Source: Alphaproteobacteria bacterium (GTDB taxonomy: Bacteria; Pseudomonadota; Alphaproteobacteria; JANQMY01). From it: a stretch of 44,675 nucleotides of DNA. This document shows positions 22,829 to 35,652 of this stretch, piece by piece. The stretch covers positions 1 to 44,675 of the forward strand of contig JANQMY010000294.1 of the NCBI GenBank assembly GCA_028279895.1, read 5' to 3'. A program made the position numbers and the translations under genes. The notes below the pieces were generated by a model. That model saw only the letters and a program-made list of their open reading frames with translations, had not been told where the DNA came from and did not search any database. Position 1 is the stretch's first letter. Each line of letters opens with the position of its first letter.

Positions 22829-23096
22829 TATTTTGTGCGACGGAGACATACGTAGTGACATCGTCGAGAGCATCCCGCGCCCGTTTCACGGCTGTCAGTG
22901 ACGCGCCCAGTGCGTCTCTCTGCAACATCGAAGCGGCTTCAGCGGTTACAACTTCATATGTGGAGAATTTGCCGCTACAACCCATACACCTCCGCCGCCG
23001 GTGGACAGCCGGGCAATCAAACACCGTGGTGCGGCGGGAGTCGTAAACTCTGGTTTCAACATGACCGCACATCGGGCAATCGATCGACCTACTCAT
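22806..23096 (-). CDS. NrdR-like zinc ribbon protein (lacking ATP-cone)
   Basis: CPMCGHVETRVYDSRRTTVFDCPAVHRRRRCMGCSGKFSTYEVV matches the NrdR N-terminal pattern CPxCG..T.V.DSR....RRRR.C..C..rFtTyE; only 96 aa. Confidence 0.65.
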   Translation of the reverse strand: MSRSIDCPMCGHVETRVYDSRRTTVFDCPAVHRRRRCMGCSGKFSTYEVVTAEAASMLQRDALGASLTAVKRARDALDDVTTYVSVAQNNGVGGVD

Positions 23097-23617
23097 GCCG
23101 ACGCTCTTTCGAAGTGTTCAAGGCAATAGGAGCCGTGGAAACGCTCACGTCCGCATGCTTTCCACTCCGGCTTTTCTCCGATGATCCACCGGCATTGCGT
23201 TTTGTTGTCTGGCAATGGCCCAGCACATAAAGGCTCCAGGTCTTCTTTTGAGGATTCAGGTCGCTTGGCGCATTTGCGCTCACGAGGAAGACTTACACCC
23301 GACGTTTGCAGCACCAACCCCAATGCCCGCGCCCTTTTATGGACGGCGAGCGGCGTGCGGTTCATGTACCGCGCTGCTTGGGCCGGTGTCCTTCCCGCCC
23401 CCGCGAGTTTTCTTAGCTTGTCGTCGTCCTGGTCGGTCCACGGATCATTGGATCTGGACCCAAACGAGATACGCAATCTCTGAGCACGCCCGGAAACCGC
23501 TCCGACACTCAGCCCTATGGTGTCCGCCGCCGCGCGGGCGCTCATTCCCTGCGCGGCTAAAGACGCGACTTTTTCATCCAGGTCTTTCGTCCATATAGTG
23601 TCATGTCTTGACGGCAT
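23093..23617 (-). CDS. GcrA-like regulator with two HTH repeats
   Basis: WTKDLDEKVASLAAQGMSARAAADTIGLSVGAVSGRAQRLRI and WTDQDDDKLRKLAGAGRTPAQAARYMNRTPLAVHKRARALGL; C-terminal CRWIIGEKPEWKACGRERFHGSYCLEH resembles the GcrA C-terminal motif. Confidence 0.72.
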   Translation of the reverse strand: MPSRHDTIWTKDLDEKVASLAAQGMSARAAADTIGLSVGAVSGRAQRLRISFGSRSNDPWTDQDDDKLRKLAGAGRTPAQAARYMNRTPLAVHKRARALGLVLQTSGVSLPRERKCAKRPESSKEDLEPLCAGPLPDNKTQCRWIIGEKPEWKACGRERFHGSYCLEHFERASA

Positions 23618-24186: not shown

Positions 24187-24211
24187 GTGGAATTGCAGGT
24201 TGCAGTTCCAC
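24187..24211. repeat. 25-bp near-perfect inverted repeat upstream of the left operon
   Basis: GTGGAAtTGCAggtTGCAgTTCCAC. Confidence 0.85.
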
Positions 24212-24258
24212 AACTATGTACACGTGAAGCTATGGGGGCTTCGCAGCATGAAACTCTC

Positions 24259-24299
24259 GGGGCCGGTCTCGGTGTCTCCGCACTCCCGGCCCCCTTTTT
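24259..24299 (+). terminator. Rho-independent terminator, plus strand
   Basis: GGGGCCGG (24259-24266) / CCGGCCCC (24286-24293) then TTTTT (24295-24299). Confidence 0.75.
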
Positions 24300-24535
24300 C
24301 TGAAAGGAGATTTGTTTGGAATAATTCTTAGCGGGCTCTGCTAGACACCATGCGTCAACATGGTTGTCTAACGAGCGTCCGATAGCGGCATAACCGCCTT
24401 CAGCACGGCGAACGGATTTCGCGCGAGCATGAGAAACTTTGCGTGAATTTGAGATTCGTAATTGCTGGAGGGAGCCTTCAATGATAGGCTGTAAGAAAAG
24501 TGTCGCACAACGGGAAATCTGGTCATGCATCGAGA

Positions 24536-24781
24536 TCAACCTTCGTTGGCGCTCGTTGTTGACAACAACTGCTCAGCCGACAAGGCAACGCCGCGCTCTT
24601 CTGCCAATTGTAAAATGCGTAAAAGGTGCCGTCGCGGGACGCCGCGCTTGGGCCACTTACCGACCGTGCCGGGTTTTACCTTTAACTCTACCGCAAGCAC
24701 TTCCTCGCCGCGGACTTCGCGCGTCACTGTTTCTTCACCGGCAAAAGCTGCGATTACATCTGATGGGGTCGTGTATTTCAT
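24536..24781 (-). CDS. Cro/YdaS-like HTH regulator
   Basis: MKYTTPSDVIAAFAGEETVTREVRGEEVLAVELKVKPGTVGKWPKRGVPRRHLLRILQLAEERGV; divergent from the CI-like gene. Confidence 0.65.
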   Translation of the reverse strand: MKYTTPSDVIAAFAGEETVTREVRGEEVLAVELKVKPGTVGKWPKRGVPRRHLLRILQLAEERGVALSAEQLLSTTSANEG

Positions 24782-24788
24782 GGCGGGT

Positions 24789-24817
24789 ATCATGGGGACA
24801 TTTTGTACCCATGTCAA
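24789..24817 (-). promoter_or_regulatory. Leftward promoter with 17-bp operator in its spacer
   Basis: Minus strand TTGACA-17-CATGAT; the spacer is almost the dyad GGGTACAAAATGTCCCC. Confidence 0.6.
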
Positions 24818-24866
24818 TTGCTTTTTGTATACCGCACACCCTTCCCGTGAAGTCGTGCTGCCTCCA

Positions 24867-25292
24867 ATGTTTACGTCCGCGAAACTGTTGGGGACGGAAA
24901 TAGTGGCGACCGGGCAAAACAATGCGCCGACCGATAAAGTTGAGTGGAATGAGCTTTTTATAAAGCGCCTGGAATTCCTTTTAAACGAAATGGGCTGGAC
25001 GCCCTCTCAACTCGGAACGGCCATGTATCCTGGAGCGGCAAAGCGTGACGATCAGCCAAAAGCGGTCACGCATTGGTTTAGGGAGAATAGACGATCTGCG
25101 CCCGCTGGCGGATTGGCGCTTGCCGCGAGGACGATTGGGGTAAGCATTTCCTACATCATGGGGGAGACCGACGATCTTGAGTCGTGCGTCAAAGAGGGCG
25201 GGCTTTTCGCGTTCTACAGACTGCAAAAGCAGCATGACGAGCTGCAACAAAAAATAGAAAGCGAAGCCAAACCGCGTAAGAAAACGGGATAA
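24867..25292 (+). CDS. CI-like XRE/HTH repressor without peptidase domain
   Basis: VEWNELFIKRLEFLLNEMGWTPSQLGTAMYPG...KAVTHWFRENRRSAPAGGLALAARTIGVSISYIMGE; ATG at 24867 preferred, since the upstream extension is antisense to the Cro-like gene. Confidence 0.7.
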   Translation: MFTSAKLLGTEIVATGQNNAPTDKVEWNELFIKRLEFLLNEMGWTPSQLGTAMYPGAAKRDDQPKAVTHWFRENRRSAPAGGLALAARTIGVSISYIMGETDDLESCVKEGGLFAFYRLQKQHDELQQKIESEAKPRKKTG

Positions 25293-25306
25293 ACTTTTTC
25301 GTTACT

Positions 25307-25350
25307 GAGGACGTTTTGTCCTTGATATTGGTTACATTTTGTAGCACATT
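25307..25350 (+). promoter_or_regulatory. Rightward early promoter region with two operator-like dyads
   Basis: AGGACgttttGTCCT at 25308-25322 and GGTTACATTTTGTAGCA at 25330-25346; TTGATA (25322)-17-CACATT (25345). Confidence 0.5.
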
Positions 25351-25373
25351 GGGGTCTCTACAGGAGACACCCC

Positions 25374-25607
25374 ATGGCCCTTGCAGAACAAATCCCCCTC
25401 GAAGAACCGCTCCAAAAGTTCTGGGCGTTCACCAATCTAGGCGACATCCAAGAGATTGAAGCCGTCAGCATTGACGAGGCCTACGCGCTTGCGTGGGAGC
25501 GTTTCAAGAATGGCTACGGGGTGACGCGCGTGAGTGTTCGGGAAAAGGATCCCCTCGAAAGTCAGTCTGCGTGGTGTGAGAAAACGGCATGTAGTACGGG
25601 CCGGTAG
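25374..25607 (+). CDS. Early hypothetical protein
   Basis: First gene after the operator region, AGGAG upstream. Confidence 0.7.
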   Translation: MALAEQIPLEEPLQKFWAFTNLGDIQEIEAVSIDEAYALAWERFKNGYGVTRVSVREKDPLESQSAWCEKTACSTGR

Positions 25608-25678
25608 AGGAAGGGCGGTAGCGCACAGGCTCCTGTTGGGGCGTGTGTCGCTGCTGCCAACTTATAAAAGGAAGACTC

Positions 25679-26026
25679 ATGTTCATAGACGAAAAACAAA
25701 AGCACACCACCGAAGAAGACCAGATTACTCGTAATAGACGAGCGTGGATCGCGGAGCTGCGCGCTGGGCACCGGCAATGTCGATACGGCTTACATAAGAT
25801 AGTCAGCCACTGGGTATTCTGGACGAGAGACGCCTATTGCGCATTAGGTCTTGCCGCTCATACGGCTGGATTCGCGCTCCATAACACCCATGCCGACCCG
25901 ATTGACAGAGTGATGGGCTGGTTAGGCGTGGGGGTGGCCACCACCGAGGAGATTTATCGGATGAATGATCGCGGCGCCACCTTCCCGCAGATCGCCGACC
26001 ACTTCGAAAAGGAGTGGGGTCTGTGA
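25679..26026 (+). CDS. Early hypothetical protein
   Basis: MFIDEKQKHTTEEDQITRNRRAWIAEL; AGGAAG upstream. Confidence 0.7.
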   Translation: MFIDEKQKHTTEEDQITRNRRAWIAELRAGHRQCRYGLHKIVSHWVFWTRDAYCALGLAAHTAGFALHNTHADPIDRVMGWLGVGVATTEEIYRMNDRGATFPQIADHFEKEWGL

Positions 26027-27418: not shown

Positions 27419-27800
27419 GACCGAACAACTGAAACTCAAGAACAAAATGTTGGACGAATGCGATCATGTGATCGGTGGATGGTGGGGCAACAAGATTCAG
27501 TACTTCGGTGACGCCAGCATCAGCGGCAAGCCGGAAGAGATAGCAGACATTAAAAAGAGGCTGGTTGGCTGGCTCCCACATAACAATCGGATTGAACCGG
27601 GTCATCTTGTGTTCGGTGAGTACGAACGCTCTTTCGTGCTGTTTGAGATTGTAAAAGTTGACTGGAAATCAAACCCAAGTGACATGTTTTTTGCTGATGC
27701 GCGCGTGCACAAGATGATCACCAAAGAAGACGGCGACACGATCTTTGAGCGCGACTCAACTCCCGTTCGTCAACAGTGTTTTTTTGCAGGCTGGTTTTGA
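27411..27800 (+). CDS. Hypothetical protein
   Basis: MTETEQLKLKNKMLDECD; start overlaps the upstream gene. Confidence 0.65.
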   Translation: MTETEQLKLKNKMLDECDHVIGGWWGNKIQYFGDASISGKPEEIADIKKRLVGWLPHNNRIEPGHLVFGEYERSFVLFEIVKVDWKSNPSDMFFADARVHKMITKEDGDTIFERDSTPVRQQCFFAGWF

Positions 27801-32455: not shown

Positions 32456-32732
32456 ACACAGACACTCAGGTGAGCTTTGCACGACACAGCACGGCAACCC
32501 AATCATCCATGACGGCCACCTGTGCGAGGGCGCGAACCTTACACTAGTTAGCGGTGAAAACTTTTGCCTTTGGCATAGGTGCGGTTCGGCTGATGTTCCC
32601 GCCGACACGGCCTACGAAGGCAGCATTGAAGAAGTGACGTGTCCAGACTGTTTGGCTGTTTGGAACAAGGAAAAGCAACACAACATACTAATGAATGCGC
32701 AGCAGGATAAACTAACAAGTGAGCATGTGTGA
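32442..32732 (+). CDS. Small Cys/His-rich protein
   Basis: MDVIEHRHSGELCTTQHGNPIIHDGHLC...VTCPDCLAVW. Confidence 0.6.
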   Translation: MDVIEHRHSGELCTTQHGNPIIHDGHLCEGANLTLVSGENFCLWHRCGSADVPADTAYEGSIEEVTCPDCLAVWNKEKQHNILMNAQQDKLTSEHV

Positions 32733-33532: not shown

Positions 33533-33733
33533 ATGAGTGAGCCGCGCGTCCGCAAGCTGAGAATCACCAAGACAGATTATGATCTGGCTGCGGGCTTCCT
33601 GCGTGATATGGGCGCGACGGTTGCGTATGTCGATTTAGAGCCCGGAAAAGCACTAATCGTCACGACTGAGGGCAAAGGTTTGACACTGCCCCGTGAAGGT
33701 GTGGAAGATATCTGGAGCAAAACAGCCGTATGA
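33533..33733 (+). CDS. Hypothetical protein
   Basis: 66 aa, ATGA overlap with integrase. Confidence 0.55.
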   Translation: MSEPRVRKLRITKTDYDLAAGFLRDMGATVAYVDLEPGKALIVTTEGKGLTLPREGVEDIWSKTAV

Positions 33734-34851
33734 GCGCTCCTATGAAAATCGACCTACCACACATCCTTCGCGATAAGGACCGGCACGGTAATGAACGCCT
33801 GTACTACCGCCGCCGCAAGGGCGATAAGAAAATCCGGTTGCGGGAGGATCCTGGCACACAAGCCTTTCTGGCCGAATACGACAGAGCGCGTGCCCGGTCT
33901 CTGAAGGTGAGCGGACCCAGGGCCCAACCAACACTCAAGGGCAGTTTTCGTGAGCTTTGCCTTGACTATTTCGACTCCGCTGAATTCCGGCGCTTAGCGA
34001 AATCGACACGAAAAGCCCGTCAGCGGATCCTGGAAAGCTGCCTTGATGAGCCCATCCACCCTGACGCAACCGTTACCTATTCGGATTTTCCGGTTCATCG
34101 CCTTGACGTTCAAGCCATCACGGTATTGAGGGACCGCAAGCAAAGTCTACGGGAGGCCGCGAACGGTCGGGTGAAGGCCCTGCGCGTCCTTTTTAACTGG
34201 GCGATCCAGAAAGGCCGGGCACAGATTAATGTTGCCAAGCAGGTGGAAAAATTCGGCGGCACATCGGACGGGTACCATACTTGGACCGAAGCGGAGTTTG
34301 CGCAATACCGCGCCACACACCCCATCGGCACCAAGCCGCGCTTAGCGTTCGAGCTTCTGTACCATGTCGGTTGCCGGAGATCCGATGTTGTCAGGCTGGG
34401 ACGCCCGCACATCTCCAATGGATGGATCCGGTTCACGTCCTATAAAGGCCGGAACAGAAAGCCGATCAAGGTTGAACAACCGATGAGCACCAAACTTGAG
34501 GCCGTGATTGCTGCGTCAGAAACCGGTGACATGACTTTTTTACAAACTGAATACGGACGTGCTTTTTCGGCGGAGGGCTTTGGCAATCGGTTTAAGGCTT
34601 GGTGCGAGAAGGCTGGTCTACCCCACTGCTCGGCACATGGTGTCCGCAAGGGCCGCGCGACTATCGAAGCAGAGAACGGCGCGACACCGCATCAGCTTAT
34701 GGCCTGGTTCGGTTGGCTCGATTTGAAAGAGGCTGAGACGTACACCAAGAAAGCGGAGCGTCGGAAGTTGGCCGCAAGTATGGTCGAGGTCCCCACTTTT
34801 CTGGAAAATGGTCCCCACCTTGAAAAAGGAGCAATGAAATCAAATGGTTAG
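33730..34851 (+). CDS. int: Tyrosine site-specific integrase
   Basis: VGCRRSDVVRLG, SAHGVRKGRATIEAENGAT, LMAWFGWLDLKEAETYTKKAER: catalytic R...HxxR...Y pattern. Confidence 0.93.
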   Translation: MSAPMKIDLPHILRDKDRHGNERLYYRRRKGDKKIRLREDPGTQAFLAEYDRARARSLKVSGPRAQPTLKGSFRELCLDYFDSAEFRRLAKSTRKARQRILESCLDEPIHPDATVTYSDFPVHRLDVQAITVLRDRKQSLREAANGRVKALRVLFNWAIQKGRAQINVAKQVEKFGGTSDGYHTWTEAEFAQYRATHPIGTKPRLAFELLYHVGCRRSDVVRLGRPHISNGWIRFTSYKGRNRKPIKVEQPMSTKLEAVIAASETGDMTFLQTEYGRAFSAEGFGNRFKAWCEKAGLPHCSAHGVRKGRATIEAENGATPHQLMAWFGWLDLKEAETYTKKAERRKLAASMVEVPTFLENGPHLEKGAMKSNG

Positions 34852-34997: not shown

Positions 34998-35219
34998 ATG
35001 GGAGAAGTTATCCGCATTCACCGGGAGTTTGTGCACGACGAACAATTTGAGATCTGGGCCCATGAAATTGTCCAGGCCCTCAACATGAGCGAGATGCTGA
35101 AGGAAAGCCCCAGCTACGATGACGTGGTTGTAATCCACAAGATCGTCAAAGACGAGATCGCACGCGCGTTTGAGACGGTCTTCCCCCAGTCAGACACATC
35201 TCCTAAAGGAGGTGAGTGA
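34998..35219 (+). CDS. Hypothetical protein
   Basis: MGEVIRIHREFVHDEQFEIWAHEIVQALNMSEM. Confidence 0.6.
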   Translation: MGEVIRIHREFVHDEQFEIWAHEIVQALNMSEMLKESPSYDDVVVIHKIVKDEIARAFETVFPQSDTSPKGGE

Positions 35220-35220
35220 G

Positions 35221-35652
35221 ATGGAGGGCCTTCGCCTTGTTTTCAATGACGACTTCGCCGTTGGAGAATGGGTAGCGCGCCGTATCCCTTATATCGGTTC
35301 TGCAAAGGATTGGGGAGCGTTTCGCGCCATTGGTATAGCGAAGGGTGACAAGCCTATTGCCGGGGCCGTGTACAACAACTCGCGCGGCTTCGATATGGAA
35401 ATCAACTTTGCCGCCGATAGTCCGCGCTGGTGCACACGCGGAATGCTACGGGGCATCTTCTCTTACCCGTTCGTACAGTGCGGGTGCACGCGCGTCTCTG
35501 TGGCCACTGCCAAGCGGAATGCGCGCGCCCGGCGTTTCATTGAAGGTCTAGGTTTCAAGCAAGAAGGCTGCATCAGACGGGGCCTAGATGGGAAGCAGGA
35601 CGCCATTCTGTATGGGATGCAGCACGAACAATGCAGGTGGCTGAATGGGTAG
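35221..35652 (+). CDS. GNAT family acetyltransferase
   Basis: IGIAKGDKPIAGAVYNN...TRVSVATAKRNARARRFIEGLGFKQEGCIRRGLDGKQDAILYGM. Confidence 0.82.
   Translation: MEGLRLVFNDDFAVGEWVARRIPYIGSAKDWGAFRAIGIAKGDKPIAGAVYNNSRGFDMEINFAADSPRWCTRGMLRGIFSYPFVQCGCTRVSVATAKRNARARRFIEGLGFKQEGCIRRGLDGKQDAILYGMQHEQCRWLNG

Follow-up and report, generated by a model that had tools for sequence, protein, structure and literature searches.

In phage lambda, the CI gene has cro on one side and the early recombination operon on the other, the operators are situated in the divergent and in the early promoter, and their spacing is close to the 23 bp found in the locus described here. This locus shares the position of the CI-like gene and of its operators with lambda, while it differs by one clear OR site instead of three, by a repressor without the cleavage domain of its lambda counterpart, and by a cro mRNA that is predicted to be leaderless, which in lambda applies to cI.

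In the YdaS/PaaR2 switch of CP-933P, as in the present locus, a YdaS-like Cro analogue faces a CI analogue; there, overlapping binding sites repress both promoters, many repeats take the place of the single spaced dyads seen here, and it is the repressor gene paaR2 that is leaderless (PMC8630535). The telomere phage PY54 likewise carries a single dyad between cI and cro, but this operator adjoins cI and is as much as 40 bp away from the cro promoter, instead of lying inside the spacer (PMC4488713). The CI/MOR switch of TP901-1 has a repressor composed of an HTH and an oligomerisation region, which would be the point of likeness, and a control by a complex with the partner MOR (PMC4941734, PMC7250872), of which no sign was seen in the DNA analysed here.

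Gene order of the phage region

The window, i.e. the whole stretch of DNA that was analysed, comprises positions 1-44675 of contig C454 in a 5.64-Mb genome with an estimated contamination of 9%. It is a temperate phage: the genes for terminase, portal, major head protein and amidase are located on the minus strand, and an integrase (33730-34851) was identified by Pfam and PHROG profile searches. According to the profile searches, a Cro-like gene, a GcrA-like gene, an O-like replication initiator and a primase/helicase follow one another leftward from 24781, and rightward from 24867 the CI-like gene is followed by ERF, an HNH endonuclease, a NinB-like gene and the integrase. The repressor and cro genes are divergent, with the replication operon on one flank and recombination on the other; the gene order is that of lambda in mirror image.

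The GcrA-like protein of the replication operon (23093-23617, minus strand; Pfam GcrA 2.2e-9, phrog_323 3.5e-17) is a phage version of this type of cell-cycle regulator, and its gene suggests that the host is an alphaproteobacterium. An acetyltransferase-like gene (35170-35652, plus strand; phrog_4470, 1.9e-35) is found 3' of the integrase.

Putative operator sites

The first-pass annotation had described three related dyads, all of which are present, one in the 85-bp divergent gap to the left of the CI-like gene and two in the 81-bp gap to its right. The putative operator OR1 (site 1, 24794-24810, GGGGACATTTTGTACCC) shows 6/7 arm pairs and lies within the spacer of the cro promoter. The putative operator OL2 (site 2, 25307-25323, GAGGACGTTTTGTCCTT) shows 5/7 arm pairs and is located 23 bp from the putative OL1 (site 3, 25330-25346, GGTTACATTTTGTAGCA), which lies in the spacer of the early promoter and is identical to site 1 at 13/17 positions.

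Taken singly, these dyads are unremarkable, with equally good ones occurring in 432/5000 shuffles for site 1 and in 2156/5000 for site 2. The best pair of sites across both gaps was equalled in 4/400 shuffles. Site 1 together with two matches to it in the opposite gap reached a score of 27, where the shuffles averaged 20.7 (sd 1.0), and this triple was equalled by none of 5000 dinucleotide shuffles and none of 5000 random window pairs. With site 1 as the sole query over the 44.7-kb window, the top other 17-mer was site 3, with site 2 tied for the next place. As a set, the three sites are not due to chance.

A previously proposed 17-bp consensus, GGGnACAnnnTGTnCCC, had to be abandoned, as it fits site 1 alone and a genome scan returned a single occurrence in the host genome. 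The motif common to the sites comprises 15 bp, RGGACAnnnTGTCCY, to which the degenerate site 3 shows the poorest fit. OR1 and OL1 do lie in promoter spacers, but the proposed exact filling does not hold, since site 1 is shifted by 1 nt and site 3 by 2 nt; due to this offset, the operators overlap the edge of the -10. The shared operator sequence at the cro and early promoters is consistent with a lambda-type switch. Where lambda in the strict sense has three operators per side, the gaps contain one OR and two OL sites and no further well-scoring one. No second OR site was accepted next to OR1, since identity was 6/17 at a distance of 23 bp and at best 9/17, at 22 bp, and ACATTTTGT at 27442-27450 was dropped as an operator, being inside a reading frame.

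Promoters and the predicted leaderless cro mRNA

Two promoters had been proposed, and both hexamer pairs are present with a spacing of 17 bp, while the quality of the early -10 had been overstated. The leftward (cro) promoter TTGACA-17-CATGAT (24789-24817, minus strand; -35 at 24817-24812, -10 at 24794-24789) is the sole sigma70-like match in a 1.5-kb scan of 24200-25700, which alone proves little, since shuffles average 1.0 match. The rightward early promoter TTGATA-17-CACATT (25322-25350, plus strand; -35 at 25322-25327, weak -10 at 25345-25350) matches the consensus at 8/12 positions, which is under the cut of the scan. A transcript starting about 7 nt past its -10 would have a short leader, in which a good AGGAG ribosome site precedes the opening gene of the rightward early operon (25374-25607, plus strand). 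The product of this gene shows a weak resemblance to an RNA polymerase inhibitor family (phrog_1307, E 0.0019). For CI itself, a weak candidate promoter TGTACC-18-TATACC (24804-24833, plus strand; 3/6 and 4/6 matches) was picked by eye, with its -35 within OR1.

The Cro-like gene P0002 (24536-24781, minus strand, 81 aa) is the first of the leftward replication operon. The -35 is located at -36 from the ATG at 24781 and the -10 stops 7 nt short of this ATG, ahead of which no ribosome-binding sequence is present; a further-upstream in-frame ATG overlaps the -10. The cro mRNA had been proposed to be leaderless, a prediction that is supported by comparison, as the distance to the -35 recurs in relatives. 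An ATG 34-38 nt behind a TTGACA-like -35 was found in 14 of 28 repressor loci compared to 179 of 3198 control ORFs, and with an additional intervening dyad the numbers were 10/28 and 21/3198; since each repressor locus contributed several tested ORFs, the contrast per ORF is somewhat smaller than it appears. The 28 loci, which include near-duplicates, were tested automatically on plus-strand ORFs, while in an earlier comparison of promoter distances some ATGs had been picked by eye. In the viral contigs L060, L129 and L167, the cro ATG lies 35 nt behind the start of the -35. The idea of a leaderless cro mRNA is biologically ordinary, since the cro and cI mRNAs of PY54 are leaderless by RACE (PMC4488713), paaR2 is leaderless (PMC8630535) and leaderless mRNAs were mapped in Sinorhizobium (PMC3616915).

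By profile, P0002 matches phrog_8008 (3.9e-6), phrog_409, phrog_35 and, weakly, YdaS. Homologues occupy the same slot in L041, L044, L052 and L060, and the Cro of L167 matches P22_Cro and PHROGs that are also matched by P0002. Direct searches of viral contigs, phages and plasmids gave nothing usable, and the weak direct matches in genomes were discarded, as they are mostly long frames (~320-800 aa, many ~430 aa) and not small regulators. Single-sequence AlphaFold models of P0002 were too poor for use; one out of five reached a pLDDT of 71, without an HTH.

Related switches in independent phage contigs

A search with the helicase yielded 80 relatives, several of which carry a Cro-like gene in the same slot, divergent from the repressor. 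One of them, L060, which was found via the helicase and not via the operator, encodes a short CI and a Cro that joins the same profile as P0002. Its operator GGGACAATTTGTCCC lies in the spacer of the cro promoter, with a second site 23 bp off and a 23-bp-spaced pair beyond CI. The 15-bp core of OR1 (24795-24809, GGGACATTTTGTACC) is identical to this operator at 13/15 positions. The early promoter of the window aligns without gaps to TTGACG-17-CATACA of L060, covering OL2, which aligns with an OL operator of L060, the -35, OL1 in the spacer and the -10. With 28 of 43 positions identical, this is the best position in the L060 locus, and the best in any other locus is 26.

L108 and L109, found with a DNA pattern from L060, likewise have a short CI that is flanked on either side by the same operators. 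L129, L167, L152, L159 and L115, which have one CI profile in common, were found by the operator-pair pattern. GGACA-N3-TGTCC operators surround a peptidase-less CI of ~92-106 aa in each of these contigs. In L060, L129 and L167, one operator falls within the spacer of the cro promoter, and L129 and L167 moreover resemble the window in having a single OR and two OL sites. The operators of the pair beyond CI are 22-23 bp apart in the short-CI contigs and 23 bp apart in the window; for the five contigs found by the pair pattern, the search itself demanded a spacing of 22-24 bp, and where it was not preset it amounts to 23 bp (L060, L108) and 22 bp (L109). The window thus resembles these IMG/VR contigs in its operator motif, the spacer operator, the pair past CI, of which OL1 is degenerate, and the peptidase-less CI. 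In contrast, their CIs are far closer to one another than to P0001, the CI-like protein of the window, and their operators are nearer to perfect dyads.

The operator pair alone is not diagnostic, since 145 of the 154 listed loci from genomes and viruses have no short-CI gene nearby, and it was rejected as a switch marker. The pattern GGACAN3TGTCC-N9-11-GGACAN3TGTCC (L112-L263) was found in at least 120 genome-contig stretches, mostly without a nearby short-CI gene, and many of the matches listed are in Bradyrhizobium, other rhizobia, Azospirillum, Paracoccus and Prevotella; it is probably used by other regulators or elements. Three sites with TTGACANGGGNACANNNTGTNCC in viral contigs were likewise set aside, as no recognisable switch lies alongside. 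In seven related phages (L041, L044, L022, L066, L056, L057, L063), wholly different dyads are located just upstream of cro, i.e. the operator sequence changes and the layout stays. In an unrelated viral contig (L086:526-548), the promoter spacer between TTGACA and ATAAT is filled by a perfect dyad, GGGGCACACAATGTGCCCC.

The CI-like repressor

The CI-like gene P0001 (24867-25292, plus strand) encodes 141 aa with a weak match to phrog_8 and no Pfam match at E<=1. The absence of a peptidase domain had been noted before and agrees with these data as well as with the ~92-106 aa of the related family; the C-terminal peptidase domain that marks S24 self-cleaving repressors is not found in P0001. Searching viral contigs, phages, plasmids and genomes directly for homologues of P0001 yielded no usable match. 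The single-sequence AlphaFold model (pLDDT 52) was too poor for use, and a fold search with this unreliable model returned no match.

With the HMM of the short-CI family, P0001, scored as the longer frame 24525-25292, was the top ORF of the window, although the match is weak (E 1.1e-4, 16.6 bits). The alignment extends over residues 22-99 and contains an insertion within the HTH region. Since P0001 is the best match of the window to this profile, its membership in the short-CI family is likely, and by sequence comparison the switch appears to work like those of the family.

Proposed mechanism and alternatives

The locus can be best explained as the immunity region of a temperate phage on the lambda plan, in which the CI-like protein binds OR1, OL1 and OL2, with a probability of about 0.87. 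The gene order, the homology of Cro and the independent phages all agree with the proposal, made from the letters of the window, of a switch of the lambda type that has its operators in the cro and in the early promoter. The 141-aa protein, probably as a dimer, would bind OR1 in the cro promoter as well as OL1 and OL2 at the early promoter past its own gene. Since OR1 and OL1 lie between -35 and -10, the bound repressor would block RNA polymerase at both lytic promoters. With the lambda-like spacing of OL1 and OL2, cooperative binding may occur, and the overlap of OR1 with the likely CI promoter could allow self-control of CI. The Cro-like protein, made from the predicted leaderless mRNA, would probably compete for the same sites and commit the phage to lysis. 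Due to the missing peptidase domain, induction via RecA self-cleavage appears unlikely, and the release of the prophage would probably depend on an antirepressor or a partner protein, or else on simple dilution. No antirepressor was identified in the subset of window genes searched. The LexA-like pattern GTTC-N7-GTTC has a single match, at 32584, distant from the switch.

The pairs past the CI gene are located where a CI repressor must act, and the motif recurs alongside CI proteins of one profile, while operators differ entirely in relatives whose Cros join the same Cro profile. These points render it unlikely that the operators are mainly sites of the Cro protein and that the CI-like protein binds elsewhere or via a partner, even though profile searches support P0002 better than P0001 as an HTH protein, the HTH region of the divergent P0001 is altered, and the Cro of PY54 binds a single operator (PMC4488713). 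Somewhat less probable still is a role of site 2 as part of a terminator or mRNA hairpin of the CI transcript, which would leave only OR1 and OL1 as operators. A scan for terminator-like structures does include 25306-25324, but its two matches equal the shuffle expectation, no clear T-run follows site 2, and site 2 aligns to a dyad of L060 with the same 23-bp spacing. Finally, coincidental repeats without a regulatory role, which the frequency of single dyads of like quality in shuffles might suggest, are hardly credible given 0/5000 for the set and the recurrence in independent phages.

Significance of the switch

The lambda plan itself is well known, and the recurrence of the layout in unrelated phages shows it to be real. 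As phage operators, the six operator strings had no match in the literature searched, which is weak evidence of novelty, since subscription journals were largely uncovered. Tentatively, the window might belong to an undescribed family of compact phage switches, which is a possibility rather than the expectation. Such a family would combine a non-cleavable repressor of ~90-140 aa, RGGACAnnnTGTCCY in the -35/-10 spacer, an OL pair spaced by 23 bp and a leaderless cro with promoter, operator and start codon in ~40 bp, and induction would be SOS-independent or driven by an antirepressor.

A repressor without a cleavage domain raises the question of the inducer of such prophages. The sites offer a testable operator code for a phage from a lineage that is sparsely sampled, with two genomes of its order in the collection searched, and they point to a recurring compact design with the operator within the cro promoter spacer and the start codon directly behind. 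Should a leaderless cro mRNA be the rule in these phages, the lytic regulator could be translated in response to conditions under which such mRNAs are favoured.
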